Of a stretch of 33,627 nucleotides of DNA, positions 20,074 to 25,651 are shown piece by piece. Position 1 is the stretch's first letter, and every line of letters begins with the position of its first letter. The position numbers were made by a program, and so were the translations under genes. The stretch comes from a bacterium (GTDB lineage: Bacteria > Verrucomicrobiota > Verrucomicrobiia > Limisphaerales > UBA11358): assembly GCA_021813325.1 (NCBI GenBank), contig JAKALA010000048.1, positions 1 to 33,627 on the forward strand, read 5' to 3'. A model generated the notes under the pieces. It had not been told where the DNA came from and searched no databases. It worked only from the letters and a program-made list of their open reading frames with translations.

Positions 20074-21030
20074 TTAATTGATGTCTTCGGAGGGTGGTTT
20101 TGAGGTTTGCTCAACGTCCGTTGAAAAGGTCGCCAGGAGGGGGCGATGATCGGAGCCAGTGCCCCAGTTGGGGATCGTCGGAATATACGTTTCCGGTTTC
20201 AGCCAATGCTTGGCCATTTCCGGGCTGAGAAGCAAATAATCGATTCGCGAGTAGGAATCTTCCGCTCCGTAGTAGTGGGTCCAGGTAATACTCCTGGGTT
20301 CATAGCCCGGGTTGAGGTTGGCGTCAGTATCGCCGTTGCGTTCCGCAGGGCGGGTGTCCGTGAGTTTGAGTCGGCCGTGTCCGATCACTTCCTTGGTGGA
20401 CGGCGAAGTTTTCACATCATTAAAATCGCCCAACACGATGAGGCCGGTGTCGGGATTTCGGGTGAGCCGTTGATCGACGAAACCGCGCAAAATCCTGGCT
20501 TCCTGAAGGCGAAGTTCCGCTTCATCAGCCACGGGAGACGGACGGCGGGATTTCAGATGGGCCACGAACACATCGAAAATGAAGTTGGTGGCCGCGCGAA
20601 TTTCGACTTCCGCGAATCCCCGGCTCACGTTGAAGCGGCGCCCATCCAGCAAAAAGTCGTCGTTGGTGTGAGGATGGCGTGAAACAATCGGCAGCTTGCT
20701 CAAGATGGCCACATGGATGTTGGTGTCAAACGCCTGCACCTGTTCCCAGTAGGGGAAATTCTGGCCGGCGGTTTTGAGGGCGGCGCGCAATTCGAGCAGG
20801 GCGTTGGTGGTCCCCATTTCCTCCAGGGCCAGCACGTCGGGATTCATGGCGCAAATGGTTTCACGTATCTTGGCCTTGGCCGCCTCGGATTTGACGAAAT
20901 GCCGGGATTCGGTGGGCTGATCGAGATAGTTTTCCACGTTGTAAGTGGCAACGCGGAAATTGACCGCGCCTAGATTGGAGCCGAGCAACAACGTAAATGC
21001 CAGCGTGGAAAAGAATTTTGCCTTCGTCAT
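20074..21030 (-). CDS. exported endonuclease/exonuclease/phosphatase-family protein
   Basis: A 318-residue protein with a signal peptide (about residues 1-22, FFSTLAFTLLLGSNLGA) and a full EEP domain. The metal- and phosphate-binding motifs are visible: RVATYNVENYL, LALEEMG (metal Glu), VFVAHLKSRR, VLGDFND, SRIDYLLLS and GSDHRPLLA. EEP enzymes hydrolyse phosphodiesters in nucleic acids, lipids or inositol phosphates. The substrate cannot be told, but export points to extracellular nuclease or phosphodiesterase activity. It is divergent from folE2 (about 130 bases apart), and that region carries a palindrome described separately. Confidence 0.9.
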   Translation of the reverse strand: MTKAKFFSTLAFTLLLGSNLGAVNFRVATYNVENYLDQPTESRHFVKSEAAKAKIRETICAMNPDVLALEEMGTTNALLELRAALKTAGQNFPYWEQVQAFDTNIHVAILSKLPIVSRHPHTNDDFLLDGRRFNVSRGFAEVEIRAATNFIFDVFVAHLKSRRPSPVADEAELRLQEARILRGFVDQRLTRNPDTGLIVLGDFNDVKTSPSTKEVIGHGRLKLTDTRPAERNGDTDANLNPGYEPRSITWTHYYGAEDSYSRIDYLLLSPEMAKHWLKPETYIPTIPNWGTGSDHRPLLATFSTDVEQTSKPPSEDIN

Positions 21031-21109
21031 GAGGTGAAAAAAGTGACAAATGCCGCCGGCTTTTCAAGTGAACAATTTTAATGGGCTGTTCTGGGCCAGG
21101 GATACCACT

Positions 21110-21128
21110 TGCAAATGAAGCTTTTGCA
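21110..21128. promoter_or_regulatory. inverted repeat upstream of folE2, candidate Fur/Zur-family operator
   Basis: TGCAAA (21110-21115) and TTTGCA (21123-21128) flank seven bases, making a 19-bp dyad about 30 bases before the folE2 ATG. Nineteen bases is the usual size of a Fur-family site. The same arms recur before the ZIP gene with a shorter spacer. Assignment to Zur is inference. Confidence 0.4.
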
Positions 21129-21157
21129 TCAGTGTCCAAAACTGTTACCTTCCCAGC

Positions 21158-22024
21158 ATGTCTCGACGCAGCAAAACTATTTTGGCGACCACTCCCTTGG
21201 ATGACAAACAAAGCGAGCGCGACACGCGGGAACTGCGAATTGACAAGGTCGGTGTGCGTGGTTTGCGGTTTCCGATTCAAGTGCGGGATCGCACGCGGCG
21301 GGTGCAGAACACCGTCGCAACTTTGGGCATGTTTGTGGATCTCCCCGAGGAATTCAAAGGCACGCACATGAGCCGTTTCGTGGAGGTGCTCAATGCCCAT
21401 GGAGACGTGATTCACGTGGAAAACATCACGGAAATACTGCAATCGCTCCGGCAGAAATTGCATTCCGCCACGTCGCACATTGAGATTGAGTTTCCTTACT
21501 TCATGAGCAAGAAGTCGCCGGTGTCGCGAAAGGAGAGCTTGATGGATTATGTGGCGCGATTTGATGCCGCCGCCTGTGGCGACGAAACGGATTTTGTGCT
21601 GACGGTGAAGGTCAATGTCACCACGCTTTGTCCGTGTTCCAAGGCGATCGCCAAATATGGCGCGCATAATCAGCGCGGCCAGGTCACGGTGTCGCTGCGG
21701 TTTAAAAAGATTGTCTGGATCGAGGAAGTCATCGAAATGGTGGAGGCTTCCGCCAGCTCGGAGTTGTATGCCTTGCTCAAACGACAGGATGAAAAAAACG
21801 TTACCGAGCGAGCTTATGAAAATCCCGTGTTTGTCGAGGATTTGGTGCGAAATGTAGCGTTAAGGTTGAACGCGCATCCGCTTGTCACTTGGTATAAGGT
21901 GGAAGCGGAAAACTTTGAAAGCATTCACAACCACAACGCCTACGCCTGCATCGAGAAACGCCGGGAAATTCCCATAAAACAGGCAAAACCGCCCGTTTTG
22001 AAAAATCCTGCCCCGCAGTCATAA
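21158..22024 (+). CDS. folE2: GTP cyclohydrolase FolE2 (type IB)
   Basis: FolE2 converts GTP to 7,8-dihydroneopterin triphosphate, the entry to folate and, in many bacteria, queuosine synthesis. It does not need zinc, unlike FolE. Seen: VGVRGLRFPIQVRD near the start, GTHMSRFVEVL, the TTLCPCSKAIAKYGAHNQR block (Cys158, catalytic region) and the C-terminal NFESIHNHNAYA motif. The length is 288 residues, as expected. In several lineages folE2 is induced by Zur under zinc shortage. Here it lies upstream of other zinc-sparing genes, a transporter and a Fur-family regulator. queA, at the other end of the window, may use the same pterin-derived pathway. Confidence 0.95.
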   Translation: MSRRSKTILATTPLDDKQSERDTRELRIDKVGVRGLRFPIQVRDRTRRVQNTVATLGMFVDLPEEFKGTHMSRFVEVLNAHGDVIHVENITEILQSLRQKLHSATSHIEIEFPYFMSKKSPVSRKESLMDYVARFDAAACGDETDFVLTVKVNVTTLCPCSKAIAKYGAHNQRGQVTVSLRFKKIVWIEEVIEMVEASASSELYALLKRQDEKNVTERAYENPVFVEDLVRNVALRLNAHPLVTWYKVEAENFESIHNHNAYACIEKRREIPIKQAKPPVLKNPAPQS

Positions 22025-22125
22025 AATACCTTGAAAATTTTAGTGGATTATTTGGCGCACTTTGCTAAATTCCCGCCCCTTTGAAGCATTGGCCATTCAG
22101 GTTTTGGCCGAAAATGATTTGAGTT

Positions 22126-22722
22126 GTGATTGCCAAAAAAAAAGAAATCAAGAAGGCTCCAGTGCGGAGCGGATTAAAAACTGTGGCCACATCGGCCGCG
22201 ATCTTGGGGCGTCCGGTGGCCAAACCCAGTGCCGGGCCTGACCTGAAAAAAGTGAAGCCGGAATGGCAGGGTTTCTATTTGAACCTGTTGGAATTGCGCG
22301 CTCAACTCGTCAAGCAAATGAGCGGCCTGGCGGCGGAATCAGCGCAGGAACTGGCCGGTTACAGCCTGCACATGGCCGACTCGGGCACGGATAATTTTGA
22401 CCGTGATTTTGCCTTGAGTTTGTTGTCATCCGATCAGGATGCCGTTTACGAAATTGAGGAAGCGCTCAAACGTATCGAACGGAAAACCTATGGTATCTGT
22501 GAGCTGACCGGCAAGCCGATCCCGAAAGCGCGTTTGGAAGCGATTCCATGGACACGTTTTACGGTGGAAGCCCAGGCGCAGTTGGAACGGGAAGGTGCCC
22601 TGAAATCGCGCCGCTTGGGCACGCTCGGCACGATTGATTCAGTCGGCACCAACACCGAGGTCGAAGGCGAAGAAGAAGAACACGCCGACGAACCTTCAAA
22701 AGCAAACAAAGAGAAAGAGTAG
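22126..22722 (+). CDS. DksA/TraR-like protein lacking three of four zinc cysteines
   Basis: DksA-family proteins bind the RNA polymerase secondary channel and modulate the stringent response. This 198-residue version has a Lys-rich N-terminus, a helical middle (about 48-120) and the family's finger region YGICELTGKPIPKARLEAIP. The canonical four-Cys zinc finger is reduced: the first Cys is kept (Cys125), while the others are Thr128, Thr146 and Ala149. It should fold without zinc, like the C-minus DksA2 class. The acidic C-terminal tail (about 179-198) is unusual. The start is a GTG. rpmG follows after three bases. Confidence 0.88.
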   Translation: MIAKKKEIKKAPVRSGLKTVATSAAILGRPVAKPSAGPDLKKVKPEWQGFYLNLLELRAQLVKQMSGLAAESAQELAGYSLHMADSGTDNFDRDFALSLLSSDQDAVYEIEEALKRIERKTYGICELTGKPIPKARLEAIPWTRFTVEAQAQLEREGALKSRRLGTLGTIDSVGTNTEVEGEEEEHADEPSKANKEKE

Positions 22723-22725
22723 TCT

Positions 22726-22893
22726 ATGCCCCGAGAAGTCATCACCATCGAATGCACTGAAGCGCGCAAGGAAGGCAAGTCGCCCTCGCGCTATACCGCC
22801 ACCCGCAACAAAAAATTGCAGCCGGAAAAGCTGGAGGTCAAAAAATACAATCCCGCTCTCCGCCGCCACACGTTGCACAAGGAAATCAAATAA
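22726..22893 (+). CDS. rpmG: 50S ribosomal protein L33, cysteine-poor form
   Basis: A 55-residue L33: [36 protein letters not shown] and [10 protein letters not shown] follow the family pattern. In zinc-ribbon forms two CxxC pairs are found. Here only Cys10 remains; the others are Ala13, Asn42 and Leu45. This is a zinc-free (C-minus) L33. The gene starts three bases after the dksA-like stop and ends three bases before rpsR, so the three are probably one operon. Confidence 0.93.
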
Positions 22894-22896
22894 TTT

Positions 22897-23151
22897 ATGC
22901 CTCGCAAGACGAATACCGAAAAGTCCGACAAGCGTGGAAACCGCACCCGCGAAGCCCGCGCGCCTCGCCCCAAGCCGAAGATCGATTTCACGATTGACGC
23001 GCTGGATTACAAGAATACCAACCTGCTCCGCACCTTTGTGACGGATCAAGGCCGGATTCTGCCGCGCAAATACACCGGCCTGCCCGCGCCATACCAACGC
23101 CGCATGACGGCGGCGGTCAAGCGCGCCCGGCAGATGTTGTTGATGAAGTAA
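22897..23151 (+). CDS. rpsR: 30S ribosomal protein S18, cysteine-free form
   Basis: An 84-residue S18 with a basic N-terminal extension, then IDALDYKNTNLLRTFV, GRILPRKYTGLPAPYQRRM and the C-terminal AVKRARQMLLMK helix that binds 16S rRNA. It contains no cysteine, so it cannot bind zinc as Cys-containing forms do. Usually rpsR sits with rpsF, ssb and rplI; none of these is here. That suggests either a second copy or a lineage-specific arrangement with rpmG. A hairpin terminator follows directly. Confidence 0.93.
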   Translation: MPRKTNTEKSDKRGNRTREARAPRPKPKIDFTIDALDYKNTNLLRTFVTDQGRILPRKYTGLPAPYQRRMTAAVKRARQMLLMK

Positions 23152-23157
23152 TTTTCG

Positions 23158-23197
23158 CCGCCCGCTGTGCGATTTACGCCGGCAGGGCGGTTTTTTT
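23158..23197 (+). terminator. rho-independent terminator after rpsR
   Basis: CCGCCC (23158-23163) pairs with GGGCGG (23185-23190) and is followed by seven T residues. The 21-base loop is long but has internal pairing potential. It ends the dksA-like/rpmG/rpsR operon and separates it from the ZIP gene. Confidence 0.75.
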
Positions 23198-23209
23198 ATG
23201 ATTTAATAT

Positions 23210-23224
23210 TGCAAACCATTTGCA
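23210..23224. promoter_or_regulatory. perfect dyad upstream of ZIP gene, candidate Fur/Zur-family operator
   Basis: TGCAAA and TTTGCA flank CCA, about 20 bases before the ZIP ATG and directly after an AT-rich TTTAATAT that could be a -10 box. The arms match those upstream of folE2. A regulator bound here would block initiation of the ZIP-Fur pair. Which regulator binds is inferred from the neighbouring Fur-family gene. Confidence 0.45.
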
Positions 23225-23245
23225 GTTAGACTTTCTCACCGAGCC

Positions 23246-23974
23246 ATGGAATATCTGATTTTAATCTCCAGCATCGTGCTGGGCGCGGCCACCGTCTTCG
23301 GATTGCATTTGACCGATGCGCGCCGGGTGAAGGTTTTAAACGCGTTCACGGGGGCTTATTTGATCGCGCTGGTGATGCTGCATTTGCTCCCGGACTTGTA
23401 TGAGGTGGAGCCTGGCGTGACGGTCAAACCGCTCATCATCGGCGGGTTTATTTTGTTTGGATTCTTTCTTCAAATTGCCATGGATTCCATCTCCATGGGC
23501 ATTGAACACGGCCACGCGCACGAAATTCATGGCCGGATGGCATTCGGCATTCTTGCGGGTTTGTGCATTCATGCCTTTGTCGAGGCGCTCGCGCTGGGGC
23601 AATCGCCGGATCATCAGACCGCGCATGATCATGCCGCGCATCATTTCCTGCTCGTCAGCGTCGTCGTGCATAATTACCCCATTTCAATCGCGTTGCTGGG
23701 AATGCTGCTTCAAAGTGGAATGCGAAGATCCTCCGCGCTGATGTGTCTCGGATTGTTTGCGATCATGGCGCCTATTGGGATGTTTGTCAGCAGCTTTACC
23801 GGTTTGGCGGATTATTCGCGTTATCTCATGGCCATAGTGATTGGCATTTTCATGCATATTTCGACCACGATTTTATTTGAGAGCGAAGACCACCACCGAT
23901 TTCCCCTGGGCAAAATGTTTGCGGTGTTGGTGGGGTTGTTTTTGGGGGTGGCCAGCGTGATTTTTGAGGCATGA
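23246..23974 (+). CDS. divergent ZIP-family metal transporter
   Basis: ZIP proteins carry zinc or other divalent metals into the cytoplasm. This 242-residue protein has about seven to eight hydrophobic segments and two His-rich loops (about 88-96 and 123-133). One membrane motif, HAFVEALALG (His109, Glu113), fits the ZIP TM4 pattern. The second, HNYPISIALLG (His142), keeps His and Pro but has Ile where a metal-binding Glu is common, so selectivity may differ. A terminator lies between it and rpsR, and a dyad precedes it. Its stop overlaps the start of the Fur-family gene (ATGA), tying transport to regulation. Confidence 0.82.
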   Translation: MEYLILISSIVLGAATVFGLHLTDARRVKVLNAFTGAYLIALVMLHLLPDLYEVEPGVTVKPLIIGGFILFGFFLQIAMDSISMGIEHGHAHEIHGRMAFGILAGLCIHAFVEALALGQSPDHQTAHDHAAHHFLLVSVVVHNYPISIALLGMLLQSGMRRSSALMCLGLFAIMAPIGMFVSSFTGLADYSRYLMAIVIGIFMHISTTILFESEDHHRFPLGKMFAVLVGLFLGVASVIFEA

Positions 23975-24429
23975 GAAAGTCCTGTCAACATCCCAGGCAC
24001 GAAGGGCAGGAATTGTCGTCGCTAACCGGACGCCTGCGCCGGGAAGCTCGCAAAGTCACCGGCCCCAGGGCGGCAATTTTGGAGATCCTCCGTCACCACC
24101 CCCATCCGTTGACCATCAAGGAAGTGTTCGAGGAGTTGCCCAAAAGCGGATGTGATTTGGCAACGGTTTATCGCGCCATGCAAATGATGGAAAAGCTGGG
24201 AATGGTGAAGCGCTTCGACTTTGGCGACGGGGCGGCCCGGTTTGAATTGATGAATGAAGGGGATAATGGCCACCACCATCATCTGATCTGCACCCGATGT
24301 GCGCAGGTGGTCAGAATTGAAGAATGCTTTCCTGCCGAGATCGAACGGCAAATCGCGTCCAAAAACGGCTACCAAGCCGTGACCCACCGGCTTGAATTTT
24401 TTGGAATCTGCCCTGACTGTCAAAAGTAA
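23971..24429 (+). CDS. Fur-family metalloregulator, probably Zur
   Basis: A 152-residue Fur-family repressor. The winged-helix domain is visible (about 28-90, GPRAAILEILRHHPHPLTIK and LATVYRAMQMMEKLGMV). The dimerisation/metal domain has HHHHLICTRC with Cys107 and Cys110 and the C-terminal GICPDC pair (Cys147, Cys150), which form the structural zinc site. Family members sense iron, zinc, manganese or peroxide. Zur is favoured here by translational coupling to a ZIP transporter and by the folE2/C-minus ribosomal neighbours, but the sequence alone does not settle the metal. The N-terminus before residue 16 is not conserved, so a later start is possible. A strong hairpin follows. Confidence 0.9.
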   Translation: MRKSCQHPRHEGQELSSLTGRLRREARKVTGPRAAILEILRHHPHPLTIKEVFEELPKSGCDLATVYRAMQMMEKLGMVKRFDFGDGAARFELMNEGDNGHHHHLICTRCAQVVRIEECFPAEIERQIASKNGYQAVTHRLEFFGICPDCQK

Positions 24430-24460
24430 AAATGGCGGCCATTACCTGCCGCCATTTTTT
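24428..24460. terminator. bidirectional terminator between the Fur-family gene and a small reverse gene
   Basis: An A-rich, ATGGCGGC-containing arm (24428-24439) pairs with its exact complement (24448-24459) around an eight-base loop. A T-run follows on the forward strand and an equivalent run on the reverse strand, so it can stop transcription from both sides. It overlaps the stop codons of both convergent genes. Confidence 0.9.
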
Positions 24461-24623
24461 AGATGGATTCCTCGGCCACCCAGTCACCGAGTTGTAAATA
24501 CTCCCTGATTTTACGTCTTTCGTGTCGGTTCTTTTGGGCTTTTTTGTTATGATGTTCAGTTTTGCGGAACGGATGTTTCTGATTGCGAATTGCTTCGCTC
24601 ATCGCTTCGAGTGTTTTCATCAT
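24459..24623 (-). CDS. small basic protein, 54 residues
   Basis: A short frame with a good ribosome-binding site (AAAGGA, about 9 bases before the ATG) and a stop inside the shared terminator. The product starts MMKTLEAMSEAIRNQKHPFR. A highly basic, His/Arg/Lys-rich middle follows (HHNKKAQKNRHERRKIREY) and it ends LGDWVAEESI. No family is recognised. The charge suggests nucleic acid or ribosome binding. A second ATG one codon later is equally possible as start. It is on the same strand as prmA, about 130 bases downstream of it. Clean boundaries make a real gene likely. Confidence 0.65.
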   Translation of the reverse strand: MMKTLEAMSEAIRNQKHPFRKTEHHNKKAQKNRHERRKIREYLQLGDWVAEESI

Positions 24624-24751
24624 CACTTTTTCCTTTCATCAGATTGATAGCGTAAACAATGCCACCGGCCATCAGCCTGAAAACTGTTACTAATCTTCAC
24701 GCTAACCTGCACTTTATCGACCCTGCACCCTTGCACGCTGTTCAAATTTTT

Positions 24752-25651
24752 TCAACTAAAACAAAAAGCGCCAGAACACCACTCCCCTTCAACTTGTTGT
24801 GATATGACGGTTAAGCCTAAATCGGCAAACGCCTTTGAAACTTGAGCAAATTCGCCGGCCAGAATGCCTGCCAGCACCAGGGTGCCATCCGGTTGTAAGC
24901 GGTTCACAATCCGTTGCTTCTCGGCAATCAACAAATTGGAAATCAAGTTAGCACACACCAGATCAAAGCGTTTCGACGCTTTCATTGGCAAGCGGGTTAC
25001 ATCGCCACGTTTAAGTTTGATTTTAGCTCCCACGCGGTTCTTCCGGACATTTTCCCGGGCAACGCGCACCGCCTCTGGGTCAAAATCAAATGCTTCAACG
25101 GGTTTATAGCCAAGCTTGGCCGCGGCAATGGCCAGAATCCCGGAACCGGTGCCGATGTCTAGAAATGACATTTTCTTTCCGCCTTTGTGACAACGCACAA
25201 TTTCGCCGAGGCAAAATGAGGTCGTGGGATGCTGCCCCGTGCCGAAGCTCAGACCCGGATCAAGGATGACCACGGACTGTTTTTTGCGCGGTTTCTTTTG
25301 GCTCCAGCTTGGCTTGATCAGTAGCGCTTTGCCGATTTCCATCGGGTGAAAATGTTTTTTCCACGATTCGGCCCAATCTTCGCGCCTGACTTTACCGATT
25401 TCTACCGTGCCCGGATCGGTTTTGATGTCGCACTTTTTGATGCGCTCAAGCCCGGCGGTGACGGCGGCACGCGTGGCTTGGGCATCGAACTTTTGCTCGC
25501 AAAAAACGCTGACAGTGCTGACGCCCGTTTCCAGGTTGAAATAGGTGGCCGCTACAGTGCCGAGCATTTCGCCCAGCATTTCAGCCACGGCATCCTCTGC
25601 TTCAAGCGTGGTGGTTACAGATATTCTCCACAGTGGTTTGGTCGATTTCAT
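24752..25651 (-). CDS. prmA: ribosomal protein L11 methyltransferase PrmA
   Basis: PrmA trimethylates ribosomal protein L11 with S-adenosylmethionine. Seen: an N-terminal L11-recognition domain (about 1-90), the REDWAESWKKHFHP linker motif, ILDPGLSFGTGQHPTT, the SAM loop FLDIGTGSGILAIAAAKLG, AFDFDPEAVRVARENV and VCANLISNLL. The length of 299 residues is normal. The usual NI(L/V) after the motif IV region reads NLIS, a small variation. It follows the histidine phosphatase gene on the reverse strand after about 50 bases. Confidence 0.92.
   Translation of the reverse strand: MKSTKPLWRISVTTTLEAEDAVAEMLGEMLGTVAATYFNLETGVSTVSVFCEQKFDAQATRAAVTAGLERIKKCDIKTDPGTVEIGKVRREDWAESWKKHFHPMEIGKALLIKPSWSQKKPRKKQSVVILDPGLSFGTGQHPTTSFCLGEIVRCHKGGKKMSFLDIGTGSGILAIAAAKLGYKPVEAFDFDPEAVRVARENVRKNRVGAKIKLKRGDVTRLPMKASKRFDLVCANLISNLLIAEKQRIVNRLQPDGTLVLAGILAGEFAQVSKAFADLGLTVISQQVEGEWCSGAFCFS

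Follow-up and report, generated by a model that had tools for sequence, protein, structure and literature searches.

The stretch of DNA analysed here (hereafter the window) is the 33,627-nucleotide contig JAKALA010000048.1 of assembly GCA_021813325.1, from a member of the order Limisphaerales (UBA11358; class Verrucomicrobiia, phylum Verrucomicrobiota). Our subject is a run of six genes on its forward strand, between positions 21158 and 24429. The gene folE2 (21158-22024), coding for a GTP cyclohydrolase I of type FolE2 (PF02649, 317 bits; NCBIfam NF010200, 284.4 bits against a cut-off of 215), is followed by a dksA-like gene (22126-22722; PF01258, 40 bits), by rpmG for ribosomal protein L33 (22726-22893; PF00471, 63 bits) and by rpsR for ribosomal protein S18 (22897-23151; PF01084, 75 bits), the last two also matching the NCBIfam models of L33 and S18. 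Behind them lie a gene for a ZIP-family metal importer (zip, 23246-23974), which matches the C-terminal half of the PF02535 profile (70.9 bits, cut-off 35.1), and a gene for a Fur-family regulator (fur, 23971-24429; PF01475, 96.2 bits, cut-off 23.1). All six Pfam matches exceed the Pfam cut-offs, and together with the list of open reading frames they bear out the places and families assigned in an initial annotation of the sequence. The translations likewise agree with its Cys counts, since the DksA-like protein retains one of four zinc-finger Cys (CELT...FTVEAQ), L33 has a single Cys and S18 has none. Against the NCBIfam models, the DksA-like protein stays under every DksA cut-off (48.5 against 105 bits and 47.2 against 115.5 bits) and the ZIP protein has no match. 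The initial annotation took the six genes for one compact zinc-limitation response; we instead read the locus as a well-conserved metal-uptake operon of two genes, probably for zinc, beside genes that are simply standard in the lineage.

The spacing between dksA, rpmG and rpsR is 3 bp each, and folE2 is located 101 bp upstream of this block. Immediately behind rpsR is an intrinsic terminator on the forward strand (23157-23197), a G+C stem followed by T7 with a folding energy of -24.5 kcal/mol, which was found by folding and is not listed by a consensus scan of the region. It is followed by an operator-like palindrome, TGCAAACCATTTGCA (23210-23224, no strand assigned), and then by zip, and because of this succession we infer two transcription units. 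The stop codon of zip overlaps the start codon of fur in the sequence ATGA (23971-23974), and the translational coupling claimed in the initial annotation thus fits the sequence. A terminator-like stem-loop with a T-run behind fur (24433-24458, forward strand), taken from the consensus scan, is the likely end of the two-gene unit. Little weight is given to the scan as a whole, which returned 7 terminator-like sites against 6.7 in shuffled sequences and 7 promoter-like sites against 2.6 expected. No Rfam match to a riboswitch or other RNA was obtained in 20500-24900 up to an E-value of 1.

With a probability of about two in three, the arrangement represents housekeeping genes, folE2 and dksA-rpmG-rpsR, beside a separate, self-regulated uptake operon, zip-fur, whose metal is most likely Zn2+. 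When this metal is plentiful, the Fur-family protein would bind the palindrome at 23210-23224 and keep zip-fur from being transcribed; under shortage of the metal, the repressor would leave and the ZIP importer would be made. Through coupled translation the repressor would be remade along with the importer. Binding, repression, autoregulation and the identity of the metal are all predicted from sequence.

To characterize the region behind rpsR in relatives, we pooled 38 loci from genomes chosen by L33 and 80 loci chosen by DksA (the best 80 of 296). Removal of 24 loci with identical dksA DNA left a dataset of 94, from which the window itself was excluded. At least 400 bp remained behind rpsR in 87 of these (7 of 94 were dropped), and the palindrome was scored as present with at most one mismatch. 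It was found in 40 of the 41 loci that contain both a transporter and a fur gene, 34 of them with an exact match, and with each type of transporter that stands there together with fur (ZIP-A plus fur, 28/29; ZIP-B plus fur, 6/6; ZnuABC plus fur, 6/6). Loci with a transporter and without fur, on contigs long enough, never contained it (0/6; ZIP-A, 0/3; ZIP-C, 0/3), nor did the 27 loci with neither gene, and it occurred in 1 of the 11 loci with fur alone. Both ZnuA loci in which the contig ends before fur could appear have the palindrome. Three control palindromes with the same spacing reached one mismatch in 1 of the 87 loci (L056). A Fisher test of 40/41 against 0/6 yielded p = 6.5e-7, a value that is overstated because the loci are related. 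The slot behind rpsR can hold ZIP-A, ZIP-B, ZIP-C or ZnuABC, and importers, of ZIP types or ZnuABC, interchange while operator and regulator remain constant. Many of the aligned promoters show a T-run with the palindrome directly behind it, the latter often extended to AATTGCAAAYNRTTTGCAATT. That the palindrome tracks the neighbouring fur gene across unrelated transporters is our main evidence that the regulator uses this operator.

In the own genome (4.28 Mb, a 95% complete assembly) the palindrome of the window is the only exact match to TGCAAANNNTTTGCA. A second and weaker palindrome (two mismatches) is located at 23909-23923, inside zip and 62 bp before the start of fur; weak sites at the same distance before fur also occur in L078 and L063, and they may reflect codon use only. 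The own genome contains 73 sites with at most two mismatches, and we inspected the genes at seven of them (one exact, five with one mismatch and one with two). Read by eye, none of the five one-mismatch sites precedes a metal gene, and a wider regulon in this genome was rejected as far as these seven sites and the own znuA cluster described below go.

Sites beyond the slot were also searched for in relatives. An exact search of 40 relatives yielded 38 sites against 7 for a backward control (summed per-genome counts), and of 17 boxes re-scored from 20 fetched regions, 14 have a relative of ZIP, Znu, the small protein and TonB-type receptor described below, or Fur downstream. Six relatives with fur behind rpsR and no transporter there (G004, G017, G019, G021, G022 and G024) have an exact box elsewhere; it precedes ZIP-C in G021, G022 and G024 and, in G004, G017 and G019, the gene of a small secreted protein along with that of a TonB-type receptor, with znu genes also following a box in G019. 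Among 146 genomes of the order, 53 contain a site, with a total of 67 sites against 4 for a control palindrome (summed per-genome counts) that contains CpG and is therefore an imperfect null. Of the 67 sites, 51 were examined, and for 42 of these the downstream genes were tallied; 30 of the 42 are followed by a relative of ZIP, Znu, Fur, TonB or the small protein. The small secreted protein is about 100 amino acids in size, shows the pattern C..LH..H......DC....AHG and has no Pfam match over the cut-off. It is found at L149, L152, L153:3982-6843, L154, L161, L293 and L296 and in the own genome at L367:3708-4034 (contig C25), often before a TonB-type receptor and in most of these relatives directly behind the palindrome. 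On contig C25 of the own genome it is part of a cluster of small protein, porin-like, ZnuA and ABC genes (L367, 16000-28000).

We also examined the four upstream genes, of which the DksA-like protein, L33 and S18 are poor in the Cys residues that hold zinc. The own genome has one L33, one S18 and one PF01258 (DksA-type) gene, and a zinc-type FolE (PF01227) was not found in this 95% complete assembly. L33 and S18 are present in exactly one copy each in 39 of 40 genomes (own included), the fortieth, which is 73% complete, having neither; FolE was found in 1 of the 40 searched. In the pooled loci of the order, L33 has one Cys in 93/93, S18 is free of Cys in 80/90 and has one Cys in 10/90, and DksA retains only the first finger Cys in all 92 loci that fit the search pattern, with two others judged likewise by eye. 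The conservation of gene order was also checked, and dksA-rpmG-rpsR is found in 90 of the 90 loci that have all three genes, the remaining 4 of the 94 having less than 800 bp after the start of dksA; folE2 is located at most 1.5 kb upstream in 51/85. Among class members outside the order, L33 has one Cys in all 17 loci read, and 5 of the 17 show the dksA-rpmG-rpsR block, with folE2 after the block in 2 of the 5 and neither a transporter nor fur in any of them.

Within the window the best match to the operator before folE2, in the gap between folE2 and dksA, or within dksA-rpmG-rpsR has four mismatches. Across the 87 loci, none has a site with fewer than three mismatches within dksA-rpmG-rpsR and none has one with fewer than two in the 300 bp before dksA. 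As sole copies, standard in relatives, separated from zip by a terminator and without an operator before them in the window, folE2, dksA, rpmG and rpsR are, judged by their sequences and distribution, lineage-standard housekeeping genes and not a regulated backup set. Of the two findings that the initial annotation named as refuting its reading, the first, that these are the only copies, is borne out in the 95% complete genome. A wholly zinc-free ribosome was also considered and rejected, since the own genome has single copies of L31 and L36 that are still of the zinc type, with four Cys in L31 and three Cys plus a His in L36.

For the regulator, we aligned 73 family members, keeping in three fragments (L220, L175 and L307) and one apparent member of another subfamily (L276). 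The two CxxC motifs of the structural zinc site are well conserved, each of the four columns being Cys in 70/73 and gapped in the other three. In E. coli Zur the sensory zinc ligands are His77, Cys88, His96 and Glu111, with C88 the most conserved among Zur proteins (excerpt of PMC4219657). The column of C88 is here Phe or Tyr in 70/73, and a Cys somewhere in the stretch of residues 62-105 is seen in 4 relatives. The columns of E81, H88 and H90 of E. coli Fur are identical in 64, 64 and 70 of the 73 sequences, that of H33 is Pro in 72/73, and that of Glu101 is Glu in 60/73 and Arg in the window protein. Two Cys residues, C61 and C119, have no counterpart in E. coli Fur and occur together in 66/73. 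C61 lies immediately ahead of the LATVYR stretch in the DNA-binding domain and C119 nine residues past the first CxxC. By its predicted targets the regulator is Zur-like, and its sensory site, as read from this alignment, has the standard form of neither Zur nor Fur.

The importers provide a further indication of the metal. Manganese-type binding proteins have Glu at the third of three metal-binding positions. In 22 distinct ZnuA-type proteins that are linked to the slot or to a box, His occupies all three conserved positions in 22/22. In an alignment of one of these with the protein of structures 6ru4 and 6r3z, labelled probable adhesion protein, and with B. subtilis YcdH, which we take to be a zinc protein, His matches His. 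For slot-type ZnuA (two tested), the best NCBIfam match is the zinc protein AztC, below the cut-off. Zinc is the most likely metal of the zip-fur operon, while the absence of the usual Zur sensor Cys, the two other, near-invariant Cys residues and boxes before NRAMP and FeoB-like genes leave manganese or iron as less likely candidates.

Several observations weigh against a zinc-responsive operon. The window regulator lacks a Cys in the stretch from residue 62 to residue 105 and stays under every NCBIfam cut-off for Fur, PerR and Zur, falling far short of the Zur model (27.2 against 167 bits), and all NCBIfam matches of the ZnuA- and ZupT-like neighbours are below cut-off. The own znuA cluster on contig C25 has no box within two mismatches, and with other spacers at least three mismatches remain in the 1060 bp tested. 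No query gene follows the boxes at L160, L163 and L165 (3/17) in the first set of relatives, or 12 of the 42 sites read in the order. Among the 12, the box at L283 precedes an NRAMP gene (PF01566, 463 bits) and that at L278 a FeoB-like gene (Gate, 68 bits, with FeoB_N below cut-off), both in members of the order, where a comparable operator may serve a different Fur-type protein or a different metal; further boxes precede a TauE-like gene (L301) and small His-rich proteins for which no Pfam match exceeds the cut-off (L276 and L290). Finally, L155 and L156 have box-linked binding proteins of ABC transporters that are of a second type, with Glu in place of the third His, which presumably fits manganese or iron. 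The boxes before the NRAMP and FeoB-like genes, the Glu of L155 and L156, the retention of the E81, H88 and H90 columns without a Cys in the Zur Cys88 column, and the closest solved structure, which is labelled ferric uptake regulator, would be accounted for if the regulator sensed manganese or iron in the manner of Mur or Fur and the ZIP protein imported that metal, the operon being metal-regulated and no zinc system. Mur is a known manganese-sensing homologue of Fur (excerpt of PMC5575495). We nevertheless regard this alternative as rather unlikely, given the Pro in the H33 column, the two extra Cys residues, the exchange of ZIP for ZnuABC types, the uniform His ligands of slot-type ZnuA and their best match to AztC. 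In addition, the second Fur-family gene of the own genome (L115:3775-4239, contig C36), PerR/Irr/Fur-like, is located directly before sufB, which would leave the window regulator free for another metal. If zinc is the metal, the regulator could represent a separate zinc-sensing branch of the Fur family in subdivision 3 of the Verrucomicrobiota, with a sensing site rebuilt from C61 and C119 in place of the usual Zur Cys and an operator of its own, TGCAAAYNRTTTGCA, and it would travel as a cassette with exchangeable importers in one slot behind rpsR; we put this forward tentatively, as a possibility.

The remaining alternatives concern the Cys-poor genes. Zur regulons elsewhere do contain paralogues of folE2, dksA, rpmG2 and rpsR (excerpt of PMC6103462), as the initial annotation had pointed out, and among the 50 relatives whose sequence reaches far enough upstream of folE2, a box precedes this gene with one mismatch in 2 and with two in 4 more, both of which speak for one zinc-limitation response of all six genes in which the Cys-poor proteins served as a backup set. 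We consider this very improbable. No Cys-containing partners of dksA, rpmG, rpsR or folE were found in the 95% complete own genome, where the genes of the window are the only copies; the Cys-poor forms are standard in the loci read; no box within three mismatches precedes folE2 or dksA in the window; the terminator separates two units; and the block stands without a transporter or fur behind it in 27/87 loci and in the five loci of other families of the class. Of the compact response that had been proposed, the part that stands is the joining of ZIP and Fur-family genes in one uptake unit under a putative operator, and the inclusion of the four upstream genes does not. Alternatively, the block might descend from a Zur-controlled backup that took the place of the zinc originals and is now expressed constitutively, which would leave the adjacent uptake operon as the last part still regulated. 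Such an origin would agree with the three Cys that L33 has in 15 readable loci among the 30 taken from the phylum's other classes, as opposed to the single Cys in 17/17 loci of the class outside the order, and with the existence of DksA fingers with three, two or one Cys. It is nonetheless unlikely, since related families have the block without the zinc module, which makes the adjacency of block and uptake operon look secondary, and since the zinc forms of L31 and L36 were retained. Among loci outside the class, a one-Cys L33 is likewise found at L366 and a Cys-free L33 of another type at L364 and L365, so that the loss of the zinc site of L33, judged by these forms, probably occurred repeatedly or was passed on horizontally. 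The loss of Cys from DksA is moreover graded, which suggests erosion in place. Fingers with three, two and one Cys are seen across L349, L350, L362 and the loci of the order, a graded finger loss in related families.

The predicted zip-fur operon resembles the Zur-regulated uptake operons (znuABC, zupT, TonB receptors) of Proteobacteria, Actinobacteria, Firmicutes and Cyanobacteria in its Fur-superfamily gene with two CxxC motifs and in the palindromic operator before importer genes, and box-linked TonB receptors and ZnuABC are also found in the relatives here. Known Zur regulons include paralogues of folE2, dksA, rpmG and rpsR, TonB receptors and zupT (excerpt of PMC6103462), and that of Caulobacter includes TonB receptors (excerpt of PMC4176598). 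However, the operator TGCAAAYNRTTTGCA differs from the Zur motif of E. coli, TRWNAYRWTATAWYRTNWCA, and from the Zur sites of Caulobacter as given in the same two excerpts, and unlike standard Zur the regulator is without the usual sensory Cys and has two other conserved Cys. A ZIP importer is a Zur target also in the Zur-zupT system of Cupriavidus metallidurans (excerpt of PMC6103462), whereas here the genes of regulator and importer overlap, and one fixed place in the chromosome is occupied by importers of different types. The zinc-sparing paralogues folE2 and dksA of Pseudomonas and rpmG2 and rpsR2 of Streptomyces are of the same gene kinds (excerpt of PMC6103462), but the genes here are sole copies with no operator in front and are standard in the relatives read. 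Mur of rhizobia, also of the Fur family, represses metal uptake genes (excerpt of PMC5575495), while the targets here are mostly ZIP and ZnuABC, with one box before NRAMP (L283); the operators are not part of this comparison, a Mur operator sequence not having been found in open-licence papers. No open-licence paper on a Zur regulon together with Verrucomicrobia was found, no title on an Akkermansia Zur was among the open-licence matches listed, and no description of a metal-uptake regulon of this group is among the open-licence matches listed.

For a large uncultured group, the analysis predicts the operator, regulator and targets of a metal-uptake regulon. It also carries a warning: where Cys-rich partners are lacking, Cys-poor ribosomal proteins and DksA, together with FolE2, encoded near ZIP and Fur do not point to a zinc backup. 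The interchange of ZIP and ZnuABC under one unchanged operator amounts to a natural experiment by which an atypical sensor would be linked to its metal.

A minor observation concerns the region upstream of folE2. A weak operator considered there was rejected, as an alignment with 15 relatives shows a promoter-like block and not a palindrome. This block (21120-21157; TTTTGC ... TGTTACCTT in the window) is present in most of the 15 aligned relatives, and its end about 6 bases before the ATG hints that the folE2 mRNA may be leaderless.

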